Source of the DNA: Skermanella mucosa
Lineage (GTDB): Bacteria; Pseudomonadota; Alphaproteobacteria; Azospirillales; Azospirillaceae
Assembly (NCBI RefSeq): GCF_016765655.2
Contig: NZ_CP086106.1
Location: forward strand, 2,352,501-2,416,500
Direction: 5' to 3'
DNA: 64,000 nucleotides
The notes under the pieces were generated by a model. It made no database searches. It saw nothing but the letters and a program-made list of their open reading frames with translations, and had not been told where the DNA came from. The translations under genes and the position numbers were made by a program. Within the stretch, counting starts at the first letter, position 1; each line of letters opens with the position of its first letter. Of the stretch, positions 1-12,248 are shown piece after piece.

Positions 1-899
1 CTCTCGTAGAACCCGTAGAGCACGCCCGGCTCGTCGACCGTGCATTGCGAGAGGAAATGCAGCCCCAACGTCGTCTTCCCGGATCCGGTGGGACCAAACA
101 GTAGCGTGGTCGACGCGGCCGGGTAGCCACCGTGGAGCATCGTGTCGAGCGCTTCCAGACCCGCACTGACCCGACCGGTCGCCTCGTCCTCGGCATCGGA
201 CGGCAGTACGGTCGCCTCTAGGCGCGGGAACACCCTGATGCCGCTGTCTGTGATGCGGAACAGATGTTCCCCCCGCAGAAAGCTACCACCACGCTGCTTG
301 TGGACCGTGATGGAGCGAACAGACCGCAGCCCATGACCGACGTCGCGAAGCTCAATCCAGCCATCCACCATGGTGAACTCTGGCGAGGAGGGCTGCCGCT
401 GCTGATTGGTGAGGATCAGGAGGGTTATGCCAAGCAGGTTGGCCTGCCCCTGGAGTTCGTGGACGAAGGTGCGGAACTCGTGCTCGCTGCCCGCCACGTC
501 ATGGATGACGAAGAGACCATCCAGGATAACGAGCGACGCCTTGCTGCGGCGAGCCTCCTGCGCCAGCAGGCGGATCACTCCGCGCAGGCCTTCCTTGTCG
601 AGCGTCGAATATGCCGAGAGGTAAGTCAGCAGCCGTGGGATCCTGTCCTCCGAATAGAACCCCATCTGCTGCATGTAGCGGATCATCCGGTCGTGGGGCT
701 CTGCAAGCAGGCTCATGTAGAGGGCTGTCTCGCCCTGATCCGTGTGGTTGAAGCAGATCTGGTTGGACAGGATCGTCTTGCCCGTCCCCGGACTGCCTTG
801 GATGATGTAGGCTGCACCTCTGAGCAAGCCGCCATTCAGGACAATGTCCAGTCCTTCGATCCCGGTTAGTATCCGCTCTATGGCAAAACTCATCAGCAT
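1..899 (-). CDS. KaiC-like RecA-superfamily ATPase, C-terminus cut by window edge
   Basis: Reading from ATG at 899 the frame stays open to base 1, so the gene continues beyond the window. The first ATPase domain begins about ten residues in and has a Walker A GSPGTGKT near residue 30, followed by an EPHDR segment and a hydrophobic Walker B-like strand ending LVILDG. A second domain begins around residue 240 with another P-loop, GPTGSGKT. Two tandem RecA/RAD55-like domains are the hallmark of KaiC-family proteins. Outside cyanobacteria these act in signalling and are often encoded next to histidine kinases; no kaiA or kaiB is visible here. The start at 899 has an AGGGA ribosome site about 6 nt upstream; ATG 893 is an alternative. 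Autokinase function cannot be judged from the visible part. Confidence 0.85.
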   Translation of the reverse strand, partial: MLMSFAIERILTGIEGLDIVLNGGLLRGAAYIIQGSPGTGKTILSNQICFNHTDQGETALYMSLLAEPHDRMIRYMQQMGFYSEDRIPRLLTYLSAYSTLDKEGLRGVIRLLAQEARRSKASLVILDGLFVIHDVAGSEHEFRTFVHELQGQANLLGITLLILTNQQRQPSSPEFTMVDGWIELRDVGHGLRSVRSITVHKQRGGSFLRGEHLFRITDSGIRVFPRLEATVLPSDAEDEATGRVSAGLEALDTMLHGGYPAASTTLLFGPTGSGKTTLGLHFLSQCTVDEPGVLYGFYE

Positions 900-1503
900 G
901 GTCCCTGAACTTGCATGCCGCGCCAGCAGGCTTGAGGCGACAGCCTTCTCCTCCGGTGAGCCTATTAAGCCTGTGCACCCAACATTCTGTCTGCAGGTAT
1001 TAGCATCTCTGCTCGCTGTTTGTAAGGCGCGTCCGAGCAAGGCTGTAGAGCATTGTGGCTGAGGTCTCAAAGAATCTTTTTATGCTTCAAAGGAGGCCTG
1101 CTGACCACTCAAGGATTGTCCTAAGCAAGAGGTTTTGCAATGTCGCCTGAATCGGTAAAGGACGGCTTCTGAGATGCTGCCCGAGCCGCTACCGTGTTCA
1201 GAATTGTCGGTCTGAATCAGGCAGAAAAGATTGAATCGGCGCTGCCGACCGGGGCGACGGCAGTTCCTGTACCGACGAGTCCCGCAAATACTTCCAGCTA
1301 ACGAAAATGATTCGGCCTTTGGACAGGTCGATGGCTGGACTGGTATGGAACGACATAATCAAGGTGACGCAAGGGCCGGATGAGCCGTAACCCTTGTCGC
1401 TGTTCCATCCCTCACGGCATCGGATACCATTCGAACCCGAGGGTATGGATGTTCCCGGCGAAGCGTCCGGCCCCTTTCGGGCGGGCCGGACGCTTGCGGA
1501 GTC
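900..1503. other. gene-free stretch of about 600 bp
   Basis: No open frame here has convincing codon use or a recognisable motif. The part next to 900 must carry the promoter of the KaiC-like gene. The part near 1461-1494 holds the terminator of the ABC permease gene. The middle (about 1080-1420) is less GC-rich than its surroundings and could be decayed coding sequence, but I could not match it to anything. Confidence 0.5.
1461..1494 (-). terminator. hairpin terminator of the ABC permease/ATPase operon
   Basis: A perfect 13-bp inverted repeat, AAGCGTCCGGCCC and its complement, has an 8-nt loop. It starts about 10 nt beyond the permease stop codon on the minus strand. There is no clear U-tract. 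Confidence 0.7.
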
Positions 1504-2307
1504 TCAATCCGCCTGTGCCCTCCGCGGCATGAAGCCGCGGGCGGGGTTGTAGCCGTAGATGGCGGCGGCCAGGAACACCGCCAGGGCAAGCGCTGTCCAG
1601 CCCAGCGACTCCCAGTTGATCTGCACGTAGAGGGCGAAGCGGATCAGTTCGACCGCGTGGGTGAACGGGTTGGCGGCGCAGATCTGGTAGAGCAGCACGC
1701 TAGATTCCTGCATCTTCCACAACGGATAGAGCGCCGAGGACAGGAAGAAGGTCGGGAAGATCACGAAGTTCATGACTCCCGCGAAGTTCTCCAGCTGCTT
1801 GATGGTCGAGGACAGCAGCATGCCCACGGCTCCCAGCATCAACCCGCTGACGACCAGGGCCGGCAGCGCCGTCAGGTATCCCAGGGGCGGCATGACAATG
1901 TCGAAGGCGGCGGCGATCGCCAGGAAGGCATATACCTGGAGGATCGACACGGCGGTTCCGGCCAGCAGCTTGGCGGTCAGCAGGAACCAGCGGGGCAGGG
2001 GGCTGACAAGCAGCGTTCGCATGCTGCCCATCTCCCGGTCGTAGACCATGGACAGCGAACTCTGCATCCCGTTGAACAGCTGGATCATCCCGACCAGCCC
2101 CGGGACGATGTATGTCTCGTAGGTGATGTAGGTCTCGTAGGGTGGAATGATCGAGAGGCCGAGCGCCGCCCGGAAGCCGGCCGCGAACACCAGCAGCCAG
2201 ACCAGCGGCCGGACCAGGGCCGCCAGGAAGCGCTCGCGCTGGTGGAGGAACCGCAGCACCTCGCGGATCACGATGCCGTTGAGGGCGCGCCAGTAATGCA
2301 GGTTCAT
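1504..2307 (-). CDS. ABC-2 type transporter permease of the quinoprotein alcohol dehydrogenase cluster
   Basis: A 267-residue integral membrane protein with about six hydrophobic segments. It is the membrane half of an ABC-2 type exporter whose ATPase is the overlapping upstream gene. Start ATG at 2307 overlaps the ATPase stop (ATGA), which makes this start much better than the longer in-frame extension. Family members beside PQQ-dependent dehydrogenases are known as the alcohol-cluster ABC permease (PedC-type). Their substrate is unknown, with export or tolerance of alcohols or aldehydes, or of a cofactor, proposed. Internal motifs include the segment NGMQSSLSMVYDREMGSMR, typical of ABC-2 permeases. 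The direction of transport is inferred from the family. Confidence 0.88.
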   Translation of the reverse strand: MNLHYWRALNGIVIREVLRFLHQRERFLAALVRPLVWLLVFAAGFRAALGLSIIPPYETYITYETYIVPGLVGMIQLFNGMQSSLSMVYDREMGSMRTLLVSPLPRWFLLTAKLLAGTAVSILQVYAFLAIAAAFDIVMPPLGYLTALPALVVSGLMLGAVGMLLSSTIKQLENFAGVMNFVIFPTFFLSSALYPLWKMQESSVLLYQICAANPFTHAVELIRFALYVQINWESLGWTALALAVFLAAAIYGYNPARGFMPRRAQAD

Positions 2308-3041
2308 GCTGCCACCTGGTTGATCAGCCGGTGGAAGGTCTGGGTCAGGTTCGCCGAGGCGTTGGTCCTGTTCACCTCGCTGACGCTGCCGTCGGCCAGG
2401 ATGCGGCCCTTGTGGATCACGACGACCCGGTCGTCGGCATGGACCTCGTCGATCAGGTGGGTCGCCCACAGCACCGCCATGCCCTGGGTCCGGCACAGCT
2501 CGTGGACATGCTCCACGATCCCGCGGCGGGCCGGGACGTCCAGTCCTACGGTCGGCTCGTCCAGCACCAGAAGGTCCGGCCGGTGGAGCAGTGCCCGAGC
2601 CAGTTCGACCCGGCGGCGGTGGCCGCCGTTGAGCTGGCGTACCTTCTCGCCGTCGCGCTCGGCCATGTCGAGACGCTCCAGCGCCTCGTCGATGCGGTTG
2701 GCGGCGTCGCGCCGACCGATGCCGTGCAGCGCAGCGAAGTAATGAAGGTTCTGGCGGACGGTCAGGTCAAGGTCCAGCGTGGGCTGCTGGAACACCACGC
2801 CCATCCGGGCCAGCGCGCGGGTCGGCTGGTCTCGCAACGCGATCCCGCAGACGCGGATGGACCCGCGCGGCGCCTCGAACAGGCGGGTGATCAGGGAGAA
2901 CAGCGTCGTCTTGCCCGCGCCGTTCGGCCCCAGCAGGGCGGTGAACTCGCCCTCGTTCACACGGAAGGACACGTCGTCCAGGGCGAAGCCTCGGCCGTAA
3001 CCGTAGCTGAGCCCTTCGATCTCCAATGCGGGTGCGGTCAT
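2304..3041 (-). CDS. ABC transporter ATP-binding protein, PQQ-dehydrogenase-associated
   Basis: A 245-residue cytoplasmic ATPase that pairs with the permease downstream. Walker A GPNGAGKT lies at residues 38-45. The Q-loop is VVFQQPTLD. The signature is LNGGHRRRVE rather than LSGGQ, Walker B is LLVLDEPTVGLD, and the switch His is in WATHL. The order and length match the DrrA/CcmA-like exporter ATPases found in alcohol quinoprotein clusters. It is translationally coupled to the permease through a 4-nt overlap and lies 52 nt downstream of the beta-propeller gene, so the three minus-strand genes probably form one operon. Confidence 0.92.
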   Translation of the reverse strand: MTAPALEIEGLSYGYGRGFALDDVSFRVNEGEFTALLGPNGAGKTTLFSLITRLFEAPRGSIRVCGIALRDQPTRALARMGVVFQQPTLDLDLTVRQNLHYFAALHGIGRRDAANRIDEALERLDMAERDGEKVRQLNGGHRRRVELARALLHRPDLLVLDEPTVGLDVPARRGIVEHVHELCRTQGMAVLWATHLIDEVHADDRVVVIHKGRILADGSVSEVNRTNASANLTQTFHRLINQVAA

Positions 3042-3093
3042 CTATCCCTTGCGTTTCCTCCGGGCCCGGTTCCAGGCCCCCATCCCTTATAAC

Positions 3094-4065
3094 CTATTCC
3101 TTGATCGCCACACCCCAAGGATAGCGGCCGACCGGGATCGACTTTACCACGGTCATGGCGTCCACATCGATCACCGACACATCGTTGCTCACCCCGTTCG
3201 ACGTGAACAGCCGCTTCTGGTCCGGCGTGAATTCCAGGTGCCAGACGCGGCGGCCGACCAGCAGGTACCTTTCGACCTCGAAGGTCCTGGCGTTGACCAC
3301 GGCCACGTGGTTGGCCGGGCCGAGCGCCACGAAGGCGTAACGCCCGTCATCGGTCAGCTTGACGCCGACCGGCTGGATATTGTCCTTGGCGACGCCTTTG
3401 ATCGCGAATTGGACCGTGTGCTCCACCTTCCGCGTCGCCGTGTCGATCACCGCCACCGTGCCGCCGATCTCCGCCGAGACCCACAGCTTCGACCCGTCCC
3501 TGGAGAATTCGGCGTGGCGCGGCCGCGCGTCCACCAGCGTGTTGTCGACCAGGGACCGCTTTGCCGTGTCGATCCAGTGGACCATGTTGGTCGTTTCCGA
3601 CGTGTTGACCGCCCAGTTGCCGTCCGGGCTGACCGCCATGCCTTCCGGCTCGACGCCGACTTCGATTTGATAGGCGACTTTCCGCTGCGGAATGTCCACG
3701 ACGGTCACGACGTTGTCGTCCTCGTTGGAGACGAACAGATGCTTGCCGTCGGGATGGAGCGCGAACTGCTCCGGGTCCTCGCCCGAGGGAAGGTCGTGCA
3801 GGATCTTCCCGGTCGCGACGTCGAGCACCTGGACGGTATCGTCGTCGCTGGCGCAGATGTAAAGCAGGCTGCCGTCGGCGTTCAGGGTGATCCCGCGCGG
3901 GCGTCTGCCGACCTTGATGGTCTTCGTCACCTGAAGGGTGCCGGCGTCGATCACGCTCAGCGTATTGTCCTTCTCGTTCGAAACGAAAACCGTTTGCCCG
4001 AGCGCCGGCCCGGCCAGAACGGCCGTCACGACTGCCGCCGCCGACGCAACCTTCGCGATCTTCAT
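3094..4065 (-). CDS. periplasmic YVTN-type beta-propeller protein, PQQ-catabolism associated
   Basis: A 323-residue secreted protein. The chosen start (4065) gives a clean signal peptide: basic MKIAK, a hydrophobic Ala/Val core, and likely cleavage after GPALGQ. An AGGGAAAGAAG ribosome site lies just upstream. The mature part consists of repeated blades with YVTN-like signatures such as VFVSNEKDNTLSVID, LFVSNEDDNVVTVVD and LWVSAEIGGTVAVID, about seven in all, as in lactonase-type propellers. This family accompanies PQQ-dependent alcohol dehydrogenases and their ABC exporter. Its biochemical role is not established; a periplasmic binding or scaffold role is inference. Confidence 0.88.
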   Translation of the reverse strand: MKIAKVASAAAVVTAVLAGPALGQTVFVSNEKDNTLSVIDAGTLQVTKTIKVGRRPRGITLNADGSLLYICASDDDTVQVLDVATGKILHDLPSGEDPEQFALHPDGKHLFVSNEDDNVVTVVDIPQRKVAYQIEVGVEPEGMAVSPDGNWAVNTSETTNMVHWIDTAKRSLVDNTLVDARPRHAEFSRDGSKLWVSAEIGGTVAVIDTATRKVEHTVQFAIKGVAKDNIQPVGVKLTDDGRYAFVALGPANHVAVVNARTFEVERYLLVGRRVWHLEFTPDQKRLFTSNGVSNDVSVIDVDAMTVVKSIPVGRYPWGVAIKE

Positions 4066-4311
4066 GACGCTTCTTTCCCTTGGAGCTGACGAACGCGGCC
4101 AAGGTATCGGCATCGGCGGTATGCGGCGCATTAGACTTTGGAACCATGCCGGACCGATCCAGTACTTCGGGCAAAAAGCCTTGTCGCCTCAATACTTGCG
4201 TAATCTCAGCAGCCGCCGGCTCCTACCATAGTCCAATTAGTGCCCGAGCCCGTCCTGGATATGATCCGTCGCAACGAAGCGATCACCGCTGTTTGCGAAA
4301 GGACCTGTTTG
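4066..4311. promoter_or_regulatory. divergent promoter region of the quinoprotein cluster
   Basis: This 246-bp gap separates the leftward propeller/ABC operon from the rightward pedF-led operon, so it must carry two divergent promoters. No convincing -35/-10 pair or repeat could be fixed by eye. An SD-like GAAAGGAC at 4297-4304 serves the cytochrome start at 4312. Confidence 0.5.
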
Positions 4312-4743
4312 ATGAACGCTCGGCTTGTCCGGCTCTCCGCCGCCGCCCTTCTGCTGGGCGGTCTCGTTGCCGCCTCGACCGGCGCCTTCGCCCATGGCGA
4401 CGTCACTCCCCAGGCGGTCGACACCACCGGTCTGGAGCCGCTGGGCAAGGAATGGCGGGAGAGCAATCCCTACCGGGGCAACGAGCGGGCCATCGAGATC
4501 GGCAAGTCGGCGTTCAACCAGAACTGCGCCCGATGCCACGGCCTGGGCGCCATTTCGGGAGGCATCGCGCCGGACCTGCGGTTCCTGGAGCCGGGCGACA
4601 GCGGCGACGAGTGGTTCAAGGAGCGGGTGGTCAACGGCGCGATCCGCAATGGCGTCACCTACATGCCCAAGTTCGACGAAGCCCTGGGGCAGGAAGCGCT
4701 CTGGACGATCCGCGCCTGGCTCGAAACCGTCGCCGAGCAGTGA
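4312..4743 (+). CDS. pedF: cytochrome c-550, PedF type
   Basis: A 143-residue periplasmic c-type cytochrome, the probable electron acceptor of the PQQ alcohol dehydrogenase. Residues 1-27 form a signal peptide ending GAFA. The single haem site is CARCH at residues 72-76, followed by GLGAISGGIAPDLR, the arrangement seen in PedF. A Met in the YMPKFDE segment is the likely distal ligand. The start at 4312 is preferred over upstream in-frame codons because it begins the signal peptide and has a GAAAGGAC ribosome site about 7 nt upstream. It leads the rightward operon of binding protein, SoxYZ-like carrier and hydrolase genes. Confidence 0.9.
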   Translation: MNARLVRLSAAALLLGGLVAASTGAFAHGDVTPQAVDTTGLEPLGKEWRESNPYRGNERAIEIGKSAFNQNCARCHGLGAISGGIAPDLRFLEPGDSGDEWFKERVVNGAIRNGVTYMPKFDEALGQEALWTIRAWLETVAEQ

Positions 4744-4751
4744 GCGTGCCC

Positions 4752-5609
4752 ATGTCGGGAATGATCGCTTCCTGGTGCCGCGCCCTGGCCGCCGCCGTCG
4801 CCCTGACGGTCGCGGCATCCTCCCCGGCCCTGGCCGTGCCGCTGGACGACGTGGTCGCGCGCGGGGTGGTGCGGATCGCCGTCTACCGGGATTTCCCGCC
4901 ATTCTCCTACCGCGAGGGCGGCGTCCTGAAGGGGGCCGACGTCGATCTGGGCAAGGCGATCGGCGAGAAGCTGGGGCTGCGGGTCGATTTCATGGAACTG
5001 ACCGCCGACGAGACCATGGACGACGATCTGCGCAATGCCGTCTGGAAGGGGCCGATCCTGGGCGGCGGCGTCGCCGACATCATGATGCATGTGCCGGTCA
5101 ACCGGTCCTTCGCTCAGCGCAATGATCTGGTCGTCATCTTCGGGCCGTACCAGCGGGAGATCTATGCCGTCGCCCGCGATCCCGCGCGCATTTCCGAAAC
5201 CGCGGGGTTCCCGGTGTTCCAGACCGAGAAGGTCGGGGTCGAGCTGGATACCGTTCCCGATTTCTACCTGAGCGGCGCCTTCGGCGGCCGGCTCGCGGCG
5301 AATGTCGTCCACTACGTCACCGTCGGGCAGGCGGTCGCCGGCCTTCGCGCCGGTGCCGTGGCGGCGGTGTTCGCCCCCTTGAGCGAACTGGAGGGGGCGC
5401 TGGGTCCCGACCGGGCCAAGTTCCCGATCGGATCCATGCCCGCCCCGAACCTGGCCCCCGCGGAATGGCCGATCGGCCTGGCGGTCAAGCACGACGCCCG
5501 CGACCTGGGTTACCGGGTCGGGGACATCGTGACCGAGCTTCTCGAAAGTGGTAAGGTGGCGGAAATCTACGGGAGCCACGGGCTGACGCACAACCGCCCG
5601 GCCCAATAG
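4752..5609 (+). CDS. quinoprotein dehydrogenase-associated periplasmic binding protein (MoxJ/XoxJ-like)
   Basis: A 285-residue secreted protein of the family 3 solute-binding fold, related to MoxJ/XoxJ. A signal peptide ends near ASSPALA. The mature start, VRIAVYRDFPPFSYREGG, is the classic opening of this fold. It lies 8 nt after pedF and upstream of the SoxYZ-like gene. XoxJ-type proteins are thought to help activate or mature PQQ dehydrogenases rather than import a solute, and the absence of a matching importer permease agrees with that. GTG at 4746 and ATG at 4761 are alternative starts. Confidence 0.88.
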   Translation: MSGMIASWCRALAAAVALTVAASSPALAVPLDDVVARGVVRIAVYRDFPPFSYREGGVLKGADVDLGKAIGEKLGLRVDFMELTADETMDDDLRNAVWKGPILGGGVADIMMHVPVNRSFAQRNDLVVIFGPYQREIYAVARDPARISETAGFPVFQTEKVGVELDTVPDFYLSGAFGGRLAANVVHYVTVGQAVAGLRAGAVAAVFAPLSELEGALGPDRAKFPIGSMPAPNLAPAEWPIGLAVKHDARDLGYRVGDIVTELLESGKVAEIYGSHGLTHNRPAQ

Positions 5610-5673
5610 GACGGAAGACCCGAAGCGGACGCTCCCACGAAGCATGGGAGCGCATTGGATAGGGAGATCGCGC

Positions 5674-6480
5674 GTGCTGAAGACCCTTGGCGCAGGCTTG
5701 GTCACGGTGATGCTGGCGACCTCGGCGGTCGCGGCCGAACCCGATCCCCTCCGTTCCGTGATGTGGGACGACATGCATTCCGTGATCCTGGGCGGCGGGC
5801 CGGTCCGGTTCGATGACCGCGTCCTCGTATCCGCCCCGGCGAGTGCCGAGGACGCGCTGAACGTGCCGGTATCGGTCGATGCGACGGCTTTGGGCGCGGT
5901 GGAGGAGATCGTCGTCTTCGCCGACATGAACCCGATCCCGCGGATCCTCAATTATCGCCCGGTCGCGGCCCGTCCGACCATAGCGCTGCGTCTCAAGCTT
6001 CAGCAGGCGACCCCGATCCGGGCGGCGGCCCGCACGCCCGACGGGGTCTGGCACGTGGGCGGTGTGTTCGTCGACGCAGCGGGCGGCGGCTGCACCTCCC
6101 CCGCGCTGGCCCACGGCGATCCGACCTGGGAGCGGCATCTCGGCGAGGTCCAGGCCCGCGCCTGGGCCGGGACGGGGGCGGAGGCTGACTCCACCCGGCT
6201 GCGCCTTCGGGTGCGGCACCCGATGGATACCGGCCTGGCGCCGGGTATCCCGGCCTTCTACCTGGAGGATCTTGCGATCCGGGACGCCGATGGACGCGAA
6301 CTGGCGCGGATCGACAGCTTCGAGCCGGTCTCCGAGAACCCTGTCTTCACCGTCGAGGTGTCGCCGTCGCCCGGCAGCCGGTCCCTCGGGATCAAGGGTC
6401 GAGACAATAACGGCACCGAGATCGAGGCCGAGGTTCCCTTGCCGTGGCGGCAGAGCGCGCTGGACCCCGTCCGGCGATGA
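5674..6480 (+). CDS. quinoprotein dehydrogenase-associated SoxYZ-like carrier protein
   Basis: A 268-residue periplasmic protein resembling a fusion of SoxY and SoxZ, the sulfur-carrier pair of the Sox system. The SoxY-like half carries the signature GGGCTSP with Cys140, the probable carrier residue. The SoxZ-like half runs from about residue 160, with a segment HPMDTG. GTG at 5674 is chosen because AGGGAG lies 7 nt upstream and translation begins directly with a signal peptide ending SAVAA. ATG 5644 would add ten residues. The stop overlaps the next start (ATGA). What is carried in alcohol-oxidising clusters is unknown. Confidence 0.85.
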   Translation: MLKTLGAGLVTVMLATSAVAAEPDPLRSVMWDDMHSVILGGGPVRFDDRVLVSAPASAEDALNVPVSVDATALGAVEEIVVFADMNPIPRILNYRPVAARPTIALRLKLQQATPIRAAARTPDGVWHVGGVFVDAAGGGCTSPALAHGDPTWERHLGEVQARAWAGTGAEADSTRLRLRVRHPMDTGLAPGIPAFYLEDLAIRDADGRELARIDSFEPVSENPVFTVEVSPSPGSRSLGIKGRDNNGTEIEAEVPLPWRQSALDPVRR

Positions 6481-7421
6481 GAGGCGCGCTCAAGGGTGCG
6501 GTCGGGCTGCTGTGCCTGATCCTGATGCCGGCGGACAGCGTCCTTGCCGCCCGGCGGGACTATGGGCTGGAGGCGCGCCGGATCGCGGCCGACACCTATG
6601 TGTTCGAGGGGGCCTCGGAGCATTTCACCGCCGCGAACGGCGGAAACATCCTCAACTCGGGCTTCATCGTCACCGAAGACGGCGTTATCGTCATCCAGAC
6701 CGGGCCCAGCCGCCGCTACGGCGAGGAGATGAGGGCCGCGATCGGCCGGGTGACCCAGCGGCCGATCGCGAAGGTCTTCGTCAGCAACCTTCATCCCGAC
6801 TATTTCCTCGGCTCCCAGGCCTTCGCCGACGTGCCGATCGCCGCCCTTCCCGGCACCATCGACGGCATCCGCAGCGACGGCCGGGCGGTCACCGAGAACA
6901 TGTACCGTCTGATCGGCGACTGGATGCGGGGGACCGAGGTGGTCGTCCCGTCCGAGCCCGTCCTGGGCGCCACCGTCGCCTACGGCGGCCACAGGCTTCG
7001 GTTGATGCCTCTTGCCGGGCACACGGCGGCCGACCTCGCCCTGTTCGACGAGACCACCGGCGTGCTGTTCGCCGGTGGTCTCGTGTTCTCCGACCGCACG
7101 CCGACGACGCCTCACGCCGACATCGCGCGGTGGCTGGTATCGCTCGACCAGTTGGAGTCGCTGGACATCGCCGTCCTGGTTCCCAACCACGGCACAGTCC
7201 GGCCCGACGAAGCCGCGATCGGCCAGACTCGGGATTACCTGACCTGGCTTGACGCGACGCTACGCGAGGCGGCGGAGGCGGGCCTGGACATGAACGAAGT
7301 CATGGCGATCGAGATTCCGACACGATTCGCCGCACTCAACGTCCTTCGGGAGGAGTTCATACGCTCGGTCGCGCATCTCTATCCAGAAATAGAACAATCT
7401 GTATTGCCGCGCGTGAACTAA
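6477..7421 (+). CDS. quinoprotein relay metallo-beta-lactamase-fold hydrolase with altered metal ligands
   Basis: A 314-residue secreted protein with a signal peptide ending PADSVLAA and a metallo-beta-lactamase fold, related to SoxH and to the zinc hydrolase that accompanies SoxYZ-like carriers in quinoprotein clusters. The canonical HxHxDH metal motif reads NLHPDYFLG here, so the first and last His are Leu and Tyr. The usual AGD ligand reads AGG. The GHT and NHG histidines remain. Only about four of seven expected ligands survive. It is coupled to the SoxYZ-like gene by an ATGA overlap. It may bind one metal or have a non-hydrolytic role. Confidence 0.85.
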   Translation: MRGALKGAVGLLCLILMPADSVLAARRDYGLEARRIAADTYVFEGASEHFTAANGGNILNSGFIVTEDGVIVIQTGPSRRYGEEMRAAIGRVTQRPIAKVFVSNLHPDYFLGSQAFADVPIAALPGTIDGIRSDGRAVTENMYRLIGDWMRGTEVVVPSEPVLGATVAYGGHRLRLMPLAGHTAADLALFDETTGVLFAGGLVFSDRTPTTPHADIARWLVSLDQLESLDIAVLVPNHGTVRPDEAAIGQTRDYLTWLDATLREAAEAGLDMNEVMAIEIPTRFAALNVLREEFIRSVAHLYPEIEQSVLPRVN

Positions 7422-7693
7422 ACAGGGCCTGAATCGGACCGACCTGCCTCCTGACGGACGCGGGAAAGCTTTCGTTCGTTCGCATCTATATTATAGCCAT
7501 CTATTGTACTTTTTGCCAATTGCTTGGTTTCGACGTGAGGTTAATCTCCGCGACCAAGGACAAACAGGCCTGCGGGGCCGGGAAGATTTGGCAAAGCCGG
7601 GGCTTGGCTGTCGGGACGGGAGCGTTCCGGCGGCCGGTCGGTGGCGGAGCGGCCCGGTGCCGGCGTCGCGTGCTCTTGAGGGAGGCTGACTTT
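7422..7693 (+). promoter_or_regulatory. upstream region of the PQQ alcohol dehydrogenase gene
   Basis: This 272-bp gap contains an AT-rich patch around 7485-7520 (CATCTATATTATAGCC and TTGTACTTTTTGCC), unlike the GC-rich surroundings and suitable for a promoter. It leaves a leader of about 170 nt before the start codon. GAGGGAGGC at 7678-7686 is the ribosome site. A regulated, separately transcribed dehydrogenase gene is likely, but no defined operator could be recognised. Confidence 0.5.
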
Positions 7694-9466
7694 ATGAAGC
7701 GAATGAAGACGTCTTATGCCGTGGCGGGCGCCGTTGCCGGAGGGCTCGCCTTCGGTCTGGCGACGGGTGCCGCGCAGGCCGCCGGCCCGACCAACGAGGA
7801 CATCCTGAAGGATGCCCAGACTCCCGGCGACGTGCTGACCTATGGCATGGGTCACCAGGGCCAGCGCCACAGCCCGCTGAAGGCGCTGAACACCGACACG
7901 GTCAAGAAGCTGACCCCGGTCTGGGCCTTCTCGTTCGGTGGCGAGAAGCAGCGCGGCCAGGAGTCGCAGCCGATCGTCCATGACGGCACGATCTACGTGA
8001 CCGGCTCCTACTCCCGCCTGTTCGCGCTGGACGCGCGTACCGGCGAGAAGAAGTGGCAGTACGAGGCTCGCCTGCCGGAAGGCATCATGCCGTGCTGCGA
8101 CGTGGTCAACCGCGGCGCCGCCATCCTGGGTGACAAGGTCTATTTCGGCACGCTCGACGCGCGTCTGGTCGCCCTCAACAAGGACACCGGCAAGGTCGTC
8201 TGGAACAAGAAGGTCGCCGACTACCAGGCCGGCTATTCGATGACCGCGGCGCCGCTGATCGTCGACGGCAAGATCATCACCGGCAATTCCGGCGGCGAGT
8301 TCGGCGTGCTGGGCGCGGTCGAGGCCCGTGACGCCGAGACCGGCGAGGTGATCTGGACCCGGCCGACCATCGAGGGGAACATGGGGACCCTCAACGGCAA
8401 GGAAAGCACCATGACCGGCGTCAGGAACGCCACATGGACAGGCGACCTGTGGCAGACCGGCGGCGGCGCCACCTGGCTGGGCGGCACCTACGACCCCGAG
8501 ACCAAGCAGCTCTTCTTCGGCACCGGCAACCCGGCGCCCTGGAACTCGCACCTGCGGCCGGGCGACAACCTGTACACCTCGTCCACCCTGGCGATCAACC
8601 CGGACAACGGCGAGATCAAGTGGCACTTCCAGACCACGCCGCATGACGGATGGGACTTCGACGGCGTCAACGAGTTCATCTCGTTCGACCTGAAGAAGGA
8701 CGGCAAGACCATCAAGGCCGGCGCCAAGGCCGACCGCAACGGCTTCTTCTTCGTAATCGACCGGACCAACGGCAAGTTGCTGAGCGCCACGCCGTTCGTC
8801 ACCCAGACCTCCTGGGCGAAGGGCTTCGACCTCAACACGGGCCGTCCGATCTATGTCGAGGAGAACCGTCCGCCGAACCCGATGGACGGCGGCGGCGCCG
8901 CGGCCGGGCAGGGCAAGCCGATCTTCGCGGCCCCGAGCTTCCTGGGCGGCAAGAACTGGATGCCGATGGCCTACAGCCCGGAGACCGACCTGTTCTACGT
9001 CCCGGCCAACGAGTGGGGCATGGACATCTGGAACGAGCCGATCACCTACAAGAAGGGTGCTGCCTATCTGGGCGCCGGCTTCACCATCAAGCCGCTGTTC
9101 GACGACTATATCGGCGCGCTCCGCGCGGTCGACCCGAAGACCGGCAAGATCGTGTGGGAATACAAGAACCCGGCTCCGCTGTGGGGCGGCGTCCTGACCA
9201 CCGCCGGCAATCTGGTCTTCACCGGCACGCCGGAAGGCTTCCTGAAGGCCTTCGACGCCAAGACCGGCGCCGAGCTGTGGAAGTTCAACACCGGCTCGGG
9301 CATCGTCGGCAGCCCGGTCACCTGGGAGATGGACGGCGAGCAGTATGTCTCGGTCGTGTCCGGCTGGGGCGGCGCCGTCCCGCTGTGGGGCGGCGAGGTC
9401 GCCAAGAAGGTCAAGGACATCAACCAGGGCGGCATGCTCTGGGTGTTCAAGCTGCCGAAGGCCTGA
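7694..9466 (+). CDS. PQQ-dependent alcohol dehydrogenase, lanthanide-type (PedH/ExaF-like)
   Basis: A 590-residue periplasmic quinoprotein with a signal peptide of about 30 residues ending GAAQAA. The eight-bladed propeller is marked by repeats such as [13 protein letters not shown] and [13 protein letters not shown]. Adjacent cysteines in [10 protein letters not shown] form the disulfide ring facing PQQ. The catalytic Asp321 lies in [10 protein letters not shown], and a second Asp two residues on (Asp323) is the established signature of lanthanide-dependent members. Calcium enzymes have Ala, Ser or Thr there. The opening [14 protein letters not shown] and [10 protein letters not shown] resemble PedH/ExaF more than XoxF, so ethanol and other primary alcohols or aldehydes are likelier substrates than methanol. 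Cytochrome PedF is encoded 3 kb upstream. Confidence 0.93.
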
Positions 9467-9506
9467 CGCTCGTTCGGAAGACGGGACGCAGGTCGGGATG
9501 GTTGCG

Positions 9507-9534
9507 GGGGCCGGTGCGAACCGGCCCCTTTCTT
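9507..9534 (+). terminator. rho-independent terminator of the PQQ dehydrogenase gene
   Basis: Stem GGGGCCGGT/ACCGGCCCC (9 bp) closes a GCGA tetraloop and is followed by TTTCTT. It begins 41 nt after the stop codon. Confidence 0.85.
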
Positions 9535-9641
9535 CCCTGAAGAGCCATGCTTTTGTGACGAGTTCCATCTTGCATCGGCCCGTAACCCGAAGCACACTCG
9601 GCTCCCAGGAAACGCCGCTACAACGAGCGCAATAAGCAGCC

Positions 9642-10307
9642 ATGTGCAAGGTTCTGATCGCGGATGATCATCCGCTGTTTCGAGACGCCCTCAAGACTGC
9701 GCTCTCGCTTTCCGTCGAGGGCAGCCTTCCCACGGAAGCCTCCAACCTCGAGGAGGCGATCGAGGCTATCCGCGCGCAGGGCGATTTCGACTTGGCGCTG
9801 CTCGATCTTTCCATGCCGGGGGTGAACGGCTTCAGCGGGCTGCTGGCCCTCCGCGCCCAGTTTCCGGCCCTGCCGGTCGTGATCGTCTCCGCGCACGAGG
9901 ACGCCAAGCTGGTCTATCAGGCGATCGATTACGGCGCCGTCGGCTTCATCCCCAAATCGACCCCGCGTGAGGAGATGGCGGAAGCCCTGCGCACCGTCAT
10001 CAAAGGCAACGTCTATGTTCCCCCCCACATCCAGCGCGAGGAGCGCACGACGGAGTGCAACGGCCGCGACGACGACGCGGAGATCGCCCGCCGGATCGCG
10101 ACCCTGACGGCCCAGCAGCTTCGCGTTCTGGAAATGCTCGGCACCGGCAAGCTGAACAAGGAGATCGCGTTCGAGCTGAACATCGCCGAGACCACGGTCA
10201 AGGCCCATGTCTCCGCGATCCTCCAGAAGCTCAAGGTTTACAGCCGCACCCAGGCGGTCGTCTTCGCCTCCAAGCTCCATTTCGACAGCTTCCAGGGCGC
10301 CCGGTAA
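9642..10307 (+). CDS. NarL/FixJ-family response regulator
   Basis: A 221-residue two-component regulator. The receiver domain (about residues 1-120) has the acidic pair D8-D9, phosphoacceptor D55 in LALLDLSMPG, and Lys in FIPKST. The C-terminal LuxR helix-turn-helix (about 150-210) contains LTAQQLRVLEMLGTGKLNKEIAFELNIAETTVKAH, written here only as a description of its span, with the recognition helix in AETTVKAH. It follows the dehydrogenase terminator by about 100 nt. AgmR/ErbR/PedR-type regulators of the same family control quinoprotein alcohol oxidation in pseudomonads, so a regulatory role for this cluster is a reasonable inference. No partner histidine kinase is visible. Confidence 0.9.
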   Translation: MCKVLIADDHPLFRDALKTALSLSVEGSLPTEASNLEEAIEAIRAQGDFDLALLDLSMPGVNGFSGLLALRAQFPALPVVIVSAHEDAKLVYQAIDYGAVGFIPKSTPREEMAEALRTVIKGNVYVPPHIQREERTTECNGRDDDAEIARRIATLTAQQLRVLEMLGTGKLNKEIAFELNIAETTVKAHVSAILQKLKVYSRTQAVVFASKLHFDSFQGAR

Positions 10308-10724: not shown

Positions 10725-12248
10725 GTGACGCACGCGCCGAAGAGGTCAGACCCATCCATAGTACCTGTGAAGTCGGCGAACGCGGACGCGGAGCCGGTGG
10801 AGGGAAGGGGTGGGGCCGAGGGGAATGCGTCTCCGCCGCACACGGGCCGGGCTCAGGACCGGGCACCCGTGCTCTCGGGGCTGGAGCGCATACGTCAAGC
10901 GGCACGGGAGCGAAAGGAGGAGCGGTTCACCACCCTTCTGACGCACGTGGATACCGACCTGCTGCGCTTTGCCTATCGGGCATTGAAGCGGGACGCGGCT
11001 CCGGGTGTGGACGGAATGACGTGGCGGGAGTACGCGGAGGGGCTGGAGGAACGGCTGGCGGACCTGAAGGACCGCGTGCATTCCGGCCGCTACCGGGCGC
11101 ACCCGTCACGCCGGCATTTCATTCCCAAGCCGGACGGCCGGATGCGGCCGCTCGGGATCGCGGCACTGGAGGACAAGATCGTCCAGCGGGCGCTGGTGGA
11201 GGTGCTGAACGCCATCTACGAGGAAGACTTCCTCGGCTTCTCCTACGGCTTCCGGCCGGGACGGGGGCAGCACGACGCGCTCGACGCGTTGGCGGTGGCG
11301 ATCGGCGAGTGCCGGGTGAACTGGATCCTGGATGCGGACATCCGGGCGTTCTTCGACAGCATCGACCACATGTGGATCATGCGGTTCCTGGAACACCGGA
11401 TCGGCGATGCCCGCGTCCTGCGGCTGATCCGCAAGTGGCTGACGGTAGGCGTGGTGGACGAGACGGGGAAACGGCAGCCGGCGACGGCCGGCAGCCCGCA
11501 AGGGGCGGTGGCATCGCCACTGCTGGCCAACGTCTATCTCCACTATGTCTACGACCTGTGGACCCGGCAGTGGCGCCATCGCCACGCGACCGGGACCATG
11601 GTCATGGTGCGCTACGCCGACGACACCGTCGTCGGGTTCGAGCACCGGTCGGACGCCGAGCGGTTCCTCGCGGACCTGCGGGAGCGCCTGGCGCGGTTCG
11701 CCCTGGAACTGAACGCCGACAAGACCCGCCTGATCGAGTTCGGCCGGCAGGCAACTGCCGACCGGGCCAAGCGCGGCGCGGGCAAACCGGAGACCTTCGA
11801 CTTCCTGGGCTTCACCCACATCTGTGGGCGGTCCCGGCGTGGCGGCTTCCTGCTGCGACGCCAGACCCGGCGCCAGCGCAAGCAGGCCAAGCTCAAGGAA
11901 ATCAAGGAGGAACTCCGGCGGCGCTGGCACCAGGGCATCCCGGAGCAAGGCCGGTGGTTGGGACAGGTGATGCGCGGCTTCTACGCCTACTTCGCCGTCC
12001 CGACCAACTACCGGGCCCTTGCCAACCTGCGCTACCATGTCGGCGTCCTGTGGATGAGGGCGCTGCGTCGGCGCAGCCAGAAGGACAAGACACCGTGGGA
12101 CAAACTCACGCGCCTTGCCGACTGCTGGCTACCACGGCCGCGCATCATCCATCCCTGGCCCGGAAACCGCTTCCGCGTCAAACACCCAAGGTGGGAGCCG
12201 GATGCCTTAATCGGGCACGTCCGGTTCTGTGCGGGGGGCGCCCGGTAA
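10725..12248 (+). CDS. ltrA: group II intron reverse transcriptase/maturase (LtrA-like)
   Basis: A 507-residue intron-encoded protein that would promote splicing and retrohoming of its own intron. The reverse transcriptase fingers and palm run from about residue 45 to 350. Landmarks are GVDGMTW, RRHFIPKPDGRMRPLGI, YGFRPGRGQHDAL, DADIRAFFDSIDH, the GSPQGAVASPLLANVYLH block, and the catalytic RYADD. A maturase X domain follows. No C-terminal HNH endonuclease domain is present. The last residues (EPDALIGHVRFC) are encoded by domain V, as in many bacterial introns. The start is GTG 10725, with AGGAG about 9 nt upstream. No frameshift or missing catalytic residue was seen, so the element could be active. 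Confidence 0.93.
   Translation: MTHAPKRSDPSIVPVKSANADAEPVEGRGGAEGNASPPHTGRAQDRAPVLSGLERIRQAARERKEERFTTLLTHVDTDLLRFAYRALKRDAAPGVDGMTWREYAEGLEERLADLKDRVHSGRYRAHPSRRHFIPKPDGRMRPLGIAALEDKIVQRALVEVLNAIYEEDFLGFSYGFRPGRGQHDALDALAVAIGECRVNWILDADIRAFFDSIDHMWIMRFLEHRIGDARVLRLIRKWLTVGVVDETGKRQPATAGSPQGAVASPLLANVYLHYVYDLWTRQWRHRHATGTMVMVRYADDTVVGFEHRSDAERFLADLRERLARFALELNADKTRLIEFGRQATADRAKRGAGKPETFDFLGFTHICGRSRRGGFLLRRQTRRQRKQAKLKEIKEELRRRWHQGIPEQGRWLGQVMRGFYAYFAVPTNYRALANLRYHVGVLWMRALRRRSQKDKTPWDKLTRLADCWLPRPRIIHPWPGNRFRVKHPRWEPDALIGHVRFCAGGAR
12195..12227 (+). other. group II intron domain V catalytic hairpin
   Basis: GAGCCGGA pairs with TCCGGTTC. The AGC triad is at 12196-12198, a CG bulge is on the 3' side, and an upper stem TGCC/GGCA closes a 7-nt loop. 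This is the most conserved element of group II ribozymes. Confidence 0.85.

Follow-up and report, generated by a model that had tools for sequence, protein, structure and literature searches.

What do a carrier of the sulfur-oxidation type and a hydrolase do beside an enzyme that oxidises alcohols? The question is raised by a compact island of nine adjacent genes (1504..10307) in the 64,000-nucleotide stretch of Skermanella mucosa DNA analysed here (contig NZ_CP086106.1, positions 2,352,501 to 2,416,500; hereafter the window), in which a pyrroloquinoline quinone (PQQ) alcohol dehydrogenase and its cytochrome are accompanied by a fused SoxY-SoxZ-like carrier, a protein of the metallo-beta-lactamase (MBL) fold, transporter genes and a response regulator. 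All nine open reading frames (ORFs) are present as originally predicted, and seven exceed the curated NCBIfam cut-offs in profile searches. The island is a ped/lut-type alcohol-oxidation cluster with a rare-earth enzyme, a type already known; the families co-occur, as had been assumed, and the same set has been reviewed for Pseudomonas (PMC12997753). The earlier view of an incompletely described system thus holds for the carrier and the hydrolase, whose roles are unproved, and not for the cluster as such, which is in print. Section 15 of that review treats the roles of PP_2677, PP_2678 and their homologues as an open question in rare-earth biology and, in line with the original prediction that both proteins are unexplained, gives only hypotheses for these two and PP_2666: disulfide formation, stabilisation of the cofactor, or the shielding of PQQ against sulfur nucleophiles. 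The new part is the altered metal site of the hydrolase. The explanation we favour, with a probability of about 0.4, is that this is a ped/lut lanthanide island with a sulfur-handling thiol module, the hydrolase of which has been re-tooled in this lineage.

An MBL-fold protein with an altered metal site

The start of the putative hydrolase gene (6477..7421, plus strand) overlaps the stop of the carrier gene (ATGA), and its product scores well within TIGR04558, 'quinoprotein relay zinc metallohydrolase 1' (427.4 bits, cut-off 300). The AlphaFold model is of high confidence (predicted local distance difference test score, pLDDT, 94.5), with 8d2z as the best fold match. Where a di-zinc site would read HxHxDH, H, a bridging D and H, the window protein has NxHxDY, H, G and H (Q74, N104, H106, D108, Y109, H182, G201, H238), i.e. 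changes from H to N, H to Y and D to G, plus D to Q. The family and fold originally proposed are therefore sound, while the zinc site is altered and activity is doubtful; because the catalytic site is changed, so is the name 'hydrolase' for this copy. Three Azospirillum plasmid records likewise label the altered protein 'zinc metallohydrolase', a name not supported by the sequence. No description of the altered site was found among the papers listed by searches of the open-access literature, subscription journals and preprints lying mostly outside those searches.

Among 114 homologues (112 distinct, two rows being duplicates), the eight site positions read DHHDHHDH in 84 and EHHDHHDH in four. 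The altered set occurs in 25, as QNHDYHGH in 20 (the window and 19 Azospirillum) and as NNHDYHGH in five (G246, G019, G231 and two metagenome-assembled genomes, MAGs, one of Malikia and one of Rhodocyclaceae); G246, G019 and G231 are called betaproteobacterial-looking here only because they group with these two MAGs. The N, Y and G are identical in 25/25, and no partial state is seen apart from one protein altered differently (DHREFSGH, in L053). The proportion of 25 in 114 is no estimate of frequency: the named loci were taken as the best 80 of at least 569 confirmed candidates, in a search whose patterns admitted both site types. Of the 81 hydrolase ORFs, L135 (356 aa) scored below the 200-bit threshold and was left out. 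Among plasmid records (11 of 22 read), the altered state is found in 5/5 from Azospirillum and HxHxDH in the six others.

Two unusual arrangements were also seen. The differently altered hydrolase is flanked by two carriers (L053:7666-11983). A solitary TIGR04558-type hydrolase (L294), with no carrier annotated in the stretch, is carried by a small conjugative plasmid of Sphingobium, where Tn3 and IS1380 transposases flank it; its D221 position was not matched by the search pattern.

Loss of the site by decay, as in a pseudogene, was considered and is ruled out by ratios of non-synonymous to synonymous substitution of 0.046–0.246 in eight Azospirillum pairs, indicating purifying selection, and by the identical N, Y and G residues. 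H106, D108, H182 and H238 are invariant in 46/46 sequences. As the di-metal site has been lost while relatives stay under selection, the window protein is likely to be a binding partner.

The number of origins was examined with a 46-row tree, each site column having been removed together with the two columns before and the two after it. In this tree the altered rows split into two clades (96/93 and 100/99). Canonical Methyloversatilis adjoins one of these, and the clades are united in 0% of 200 bootstrap trees. An approximately unbiased (AU) test does not reject a single altered clade (p 0.259). A quick tree of all 114 rows needs three changes of the altered/canonical label; in it, a group with support 93 (not starred) unites the Azospirillaceae clade, canonical Caenispirillum and a Rhodospirillaceae MAG. 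This tree disagrees with the 46-row tree over the five betaproteobacterial-looking rows, which do not form one clade and branch stepwise at the base. Two origins are favoured over one, and a firm claim of convergence was dropped, given the AU result and the disagreement of the trees at the second clade.

The altered proteins are not uniformly accompanied by an intact paralogue. A hydrolase of the related family TIGR04559 is over the cut-off in 15 of the 25 genomes with an altered protein, partial in one (G306, 212 bits) and without a match over the cut-off in nine, and all 16 TIGR04559-type paralogues read (L204-L219) keep HxHxDH. There are thus several genomes in which neither family has a canonical member that passes, and the carrier cysteine is still kept. 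A metal site lost beside an unchanged carrier cysteine, as in some lineages, separates the role of binding partner from that of enzyme. A more specific proposal, doubtful though possible, is that the hydrolase of Azospirillaceae and of a betaproteobacterial-looking lineage gave up hydrolysis, perhaps twice independently, through changes at the same four positions (D to Q or N, H to N, H to Y, D to G), and gained a new site richer in oxygen. It would then be either a pseudo-hydrolase docking on the carrier, or a partner of the dehydrogenase binding a hard metal (Fe3+ or a lanthanide). If so, the relay would run without hydrolysis.

Carrier, dehydrogenase and their co-inheritance

The carrier (5644..6480, plus strand) is a member of TIGR04557 (216.8 bits, cut-off 140) and, read from the ATG at 5644, has a single cysteine on an internal GGGC arm; this is Cys150, not Cys140 as first numbered. 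It is invariant in all 40 carriers of the 39 loci described below and in 48/48 of a second alignment. In the AlphaFold model (pLDDT 88.7) the N-terminal half matches the SoxY fold (2ox5, TM-score 0.83 by target, 27% identity), and the C-terminal half is SoxZ by profile; SoxB-bound SoxYZ (4uwq) was also matched. It is not a true SoxYZ, since the SoxY and SoxZ models score only 53.7 (against 125) and 25.4 (against 76) bits and the arm is internal. Cys150 lies at the margin of a lower-confidence stretch between the two domains (pLDDT 80 for residues 141-150 and 68 for 151-160), and the model suggests that the arm is tethered at both ends, compared with the free C-terminal arm of SoxY.

The dehydrogenase (7694..9466, plus strand) belongs to TIGR03075 (813 bits, cut-off 480) and is of the PedH/ExaF type. 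Its best sequence matches in the Protein Data Bank (PDB) are 6zcv and 6zcw (907 bits), entries titled quinoprotein ethanol dehydrogenase, followed by 1flg (744 bits); we take 6zcw to be PedH of P. putida. A WDFDG motif, in which a second Asp lies two residues past the catalytic one, is the mark of lanthanide-type enzymes, and is present here (Asp321 and Asp323), along with a vicinal Cys pair at 134-135. WDFSG, seen in other dehydrogenases of this analysis, presumably marks the Ca-type. By its sequence, then, the enzyme is of the lanthanide type, and dependence on lanthanides in vivo would be expected.

Occurrence was surveyed in 299 genomes drawn evenly from the phylum, giving a set of 39 loci in 33 genomes (38 fetched, plus the window). 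The TIGR04557 cut-off was exceeded in 54 genomes, 21 of which have only stop-interrupted matches (neighbouring SoxY- and SoxZ-like frames read as one) and were not counted as fused; the remaining 33 encode a fused, uninterrupted carrier, and 33/33 of these also have a TIGR04558 match of at least 143.9 bits. A rhodanese-like protein with a CXXCW motif is over the cut-off in 30 genomes, all 30 within the carrier set and none among the 266 others (Fisher 3.5e-38; this test and that on the dehydrogenase type below treat related genomes as independent). The hydrolase adjoins the carrier in 34/39 loci; three of the five others belong to genomes in which it adjoins the lanthanide-type dehydrogenase (L182-L184).

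Lanthanide-type and other dehydrogenases were told apart by a DNA pattern (42 genomes) and, in the 25 pattern-less genomes, by the best-scoring dehydrogenase; other copies in these were unread, so that lanthanide-type counts are lower bounds; four genomes with unusual motifs (G147, G244, G268 and G283) were counted as not of this type. Among the 67 genomes with TIGR03075 over the cut-off, motif and carrier are found together in 32, the carrier only in one, the motif only in 15 and neither in 19 (p 1.6e-6). A lanthanide-type dehydrogenase is therefore present in 32/33 carrier genomes, an association that is not strict. Three loci show carrier and hydrolase with no PQQ dehydrogenase in the fetched stretch: L085 (A. 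doebereinerae), L086 (A. agricola) and L293 (a Dinoroseobacter plasmid), the last of which stops at the start of its record.

Possible functions of the module

According to the proposed mechanism, the dehydrogenase, with PQQ and a lanthanide, would oxidise alcohols and hand electrons to PedF, while the divergently encoded PedA2, PedB and PedC would help to take up lanthanides, as parts of a transporter with its PedA1-like binding protein encoded elsewhere in the genome. A periplasmic thiol module, co-inherited and in the service of the dehydrogenase, would consist of the carrier, the MBL-fold protein and in most cases the CXXCW rhodanese-like protein. Reactive sulfur species, perhaps supplied by the rhodanese, may be picked up by the Cys150 arm, which would spare PQQ and the cysteines of the enzyme; the carrier would also be the docking site of the MBL protein, which in the majority of lineages would hydrolyse the adduct. 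Its most likely role in the ped island of the window would be that of a binding partner, either non-hydrolytic or re-metallated. Sulfur species are favoured as the cargo by what is known of SoxYZ chemistry, by the thiol nature of the carrier, the rhodanese-like protein and, at 3/39 loci, a thioredoxin-like protein, and by the restriction of CXXCW to carrier genomes (30/30), the last of these pointing to sulfur rather than alcohol chemistry. The published idea of PQQ protection fits best, with sulfur species as the putative cargo.

Several observations weigh against this explanation. Comparable TIGR04558 matches, reaching 171 bits, occur in genomes without a fused carrier (for example G082, G219 and G292), which makes the 33/33 count less telling, and the TIGR04558 cut-off itself is passed by only 14/299 genomes. 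Lanthanide-type enzymes are found without the carrier module in 15 genomes; conversely, the dehydrogenases over the cut-off that were read in carrier genomes G054 and A. agricola (G308) are not of this type, that of G308 being Ca-type, and a Ponticoccus plasmid combines carrier, hydrolase and a Ca-type dehydrogenase. In view of these cases, the idea that the module depends strictly on lanthanides was rejected. Within the fetched stretch, a lanthanide-type dehydrogenase is present at just 14/39 loci of the phylum sample and at 62/80 of the loci nearest to the window. CXXCW falls short of the cut-off in 19/50 genomes with canonical hydrolases and hence is not obligatory. Some genomes with an altered hydrolase have sub-cut-off MBL relatives with intact HxHxDH (L221, L222, L229), which might substitute. 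In published work, random-barcode transposon sequencing (RB-TnSeq) showed minimal effects, though in the absence of lanthanides (PMC12997753), and pmpAB of H. denitrificans, beside such a cluster, did not respond to thiosulfate, the authors excluding the cluster from sulfur oxidation.

A link between the altered hydrolase and loss of CXXCW was suggested by the three carrier genomes of the phylum sample without CXXCW (G246, G019 and G231), all of which have altered hydrolases. It was rejected, because CXXCW is over the cut-off in 19/21 altered genomes and below it in 19/50 canonical ones.

Four other functions may be considered. In the first, an idea found in PMC12997753, the carrier, the rhodanese-like protein and a thioredoxin-like protein would form or repair the vicinal disulfide of the dehydrogenase. 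All are thiol proteins, the enzyme has the Cys-Cys pair, and a thioredoxin-like gene neighbours the carrier in 3/39 loci. We consider it unlikely, as the same pair is present in the best dehydrogenase of 25/25 pattern-less genomes, 23 of which have no carrier; being equally common in genomes without the module, it fails to explain where the module occurs. Moreover, the altered MBL protein has only one cysteine, Cys13, and this falls within its presumed signal peptide.

The second concerns the altered site itself, which might be that of a working mono-zinc hydrolase resembling the subclass B2 lactamases, in which Asn replaces the first His. The Asn at this position, the invariance of the four remaining ligand residues noted above and the presence of CphA, a mono-zinc enzyme, among the best fold matches are consistent with this. 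Subclass B2 combines Asn116 with Cys221, and only the first is present: the position of Cys221 is Gly in 25/25, and Tyr follows the Asp ligand, so that this possibility too appears rather improbable.

Thirdly, the module might deliver the cofactor: the carrier Cys would add to the C5 carbonyl of PQQ (a reactive position), and PQQ would be passed on to the apo-dehydrogenase; together with the altered MBL protein, the carrier might instead deliver a metal ion. Genes for PQQ synthesis occur in the fetched stretch at 6/39 loci (pqqE by model; pqqB and pqqC by eye and position), and pqqABCDE follow the cluster of A. thermophilum. The carrier also stands without a hydrolase beside pqq genes and the small cysteine protein c8 (L047, L058), or beside c8 (L057). 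Against such a role, 34 of the 67 genomes with a TIGR03075 dehydrogenase have no carrier, and we judge it to be quite improbable. Finally, capture of an alcohol-derived aldehyde on Cys150, with oxidation to a thioester and release by a glyoxalase II-like MBL hydrolase, would suit the fold and the canonical HxHxDH..H..D..H of 88/114 homologues, but is very improbable, given that this branch has an altered hydrolytic site and yet keeps the Cys, and that nine of the 25 altered-protein genomes have no TIGR04559 paralogue over the cut-off (a tenth being partial), weaker MBL relatives notwithstanding.

The protein c8 has a CSCS(I/V)D motif (L199:8912-9283, minus strand; L045:9142-9588, plus strand; L060 near 9200), had no NCBIfam match in the one copy scanned, and is found in the fetched stretch at 12/39 carrier loci. 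At L199 and L200, Methylobacterium-like by gene order, it comes after xoxFGJ and about three genes (by eye), and is followed by one gene and pqqE. By gene order alone, c8 may correspond to orf6 of Methylorubrum extorquens AM1, which offers a lead. Deletion of orf6 (META1p1746) reduced growth on methanol with La3+ to 0.03 from 0.16 per hour, and orf6 was needed only with La3+, according to the authors (PMC7391723).

Organization of the island and comparison with known systems

The nine genes lie in two divergent runs, each on a single strand. The minus-strand run comprises an ABC-2 permease of the PedC/LutF type (1504..2307; TIGR03861, 431.8 bits, cut-off 241), an ABC ATPase of the PedB/LutE type (2304..3041; TIGR03864, 363 bits, cut-off 302), the two genes overlapping by 4 nt, and a YVTN beta-propeller of the PedA2 type (3094..4065; TIGR03866, 526.7 bits, cut-off 287), which is probably exported; its start was picked by eye as a signal-peptide-like ATG within a longer ORF. 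All three models are PQQ-associated. The transporter called an 'exporter' in the original prediction does have an ABC-2 fold, but the literature presents its relative as an importer of lanthanides: deletion of pedA1A2BC raised the La3+ requirement about 100-fold, from which import was concluded (Wehrmann et al. 2019, PMC6839425). The lut data for M. extorquens agree with lanthanide import (PMC7391723), and its Lut ABC transporter is reported as similar to PedA1A2BC (PMC6839425). As PedA1A2BC and LutAEF are both tied to lanthanides in these papers, the cargo is, contrary to what had been supposed, not unexplained. A PedA1 binding-protein gene is absent from the island; a PedA1-like protein, 55% identical to that of A. 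thermophilum, is encoded at G000:C1:16383-17543, 2.34 Mb away, and the 20 kb around it show no match to the nine island proteins. In two Azospirillum plasmids, a substrate-binding-protein gene adjoins the propeller.

The plus-strand run begins with cytochrome c550 PedF (4312..4743; TIGR04494, 205 bits, cut-off 122; start ATG picked by eye within a longer ORF) and a periplasmic substrate-binding-like protein in the position of PedG (4740..5609; Pfam SBP_bac_3, 41.3 bits). The latter is MoxJ/PedG-like by position and not, as first proposed, by sequence: only generic substrate-binding models, and no MoxJ or XoxJ model of NCBIfam, were found at E<=0.001, and its 27 PDB sequence matches (E<=0.01) include none named as MxaJ or XoxJ. 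Carrier, hydrolase and dehydrogenase follow, and the run ends with a LuxR-type response regulator (9642..10307; Response_reg 85 bits, GerE 69 bits), whose best NCBIfam model, ErdR, is below its cut-off (209.6 against 390). A scan for promoters and terminators gave nothing informative. A role in defence was rejected, PADLOC having no match for either the carrier or the hydrolase.

On either side, an ORF at 3-1070 (minus strand) resembles a KaiC-type ATPase and one directly after the regulator (10725-12248, plus strand) a group II intron reverse transcriptase with a YADD motif, both by eye. The genome has a second quinoprotein relay island (L060, C1:4576300-4596200) with a XoxF-like dehydrogenase (FDEWDYDG), a CXXCW protein, a carrier (255.7 bits) and a TIGR04559 hydrolase with a canonical motif (371.8 bits). 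A further CXXCW rhodanese-like gene (L203, G000:C1:2567790-2568260, minus strand) is located away from both islands.

Among known systems, the subclass B2 lactamases CphA and Sfh-I resemble the window hydrolase in fold and in the Asn at the first ligand, and differ from it in having Cys221 where it has Gly, in lacking its Tyr after the Asp ligand, and in overall sequence (17-18% identity). SoxYZ shares with the carrier the SoxY fold, the SoxZ profile and a cysteine on a glycine-rich arm; the window carrier is fused, with an internal arm in place of the C-terminal GGCGG, and soxAX, soxB and soxCD are not among the nine genes. In the lut/xox system of M. extorquens AM1, homologues of carrier, hydrolase and rhodanese are reported at META1p1703-1705 (PMC12997753), and the dehydrogenase is XoxF, compared with the PedH type of the window. 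At the Methylobacterium-like loci of the set, TIGR04559-like hydrolases adjoin the carrier, as in the L060 island. The closest organization is that of the ped cluster of Pseudomonas putida KT2440 (PP_2662-PP_2683), with PedA1A2BC, PedF, PedG, PP_2677, PP_2678 and PedH, where the order cytochrome, binding protein, carrier, hydrolase and dehydrogenase is the same, transporter genes are included, and PP_2666, PP_2677 and PP_2678 are reported as conserved with lanthanide- and PQQ-dependent enzymes (PMC12997753). Compared with this cluster, the nine genes of the window lack PedE, PedD and a sensor kinase, and the PedA1-like gene lies outside the island; and in contrast to the altered site described here, the Pseudomonas and Stutzerimonas hydrolases of the set are canonical.

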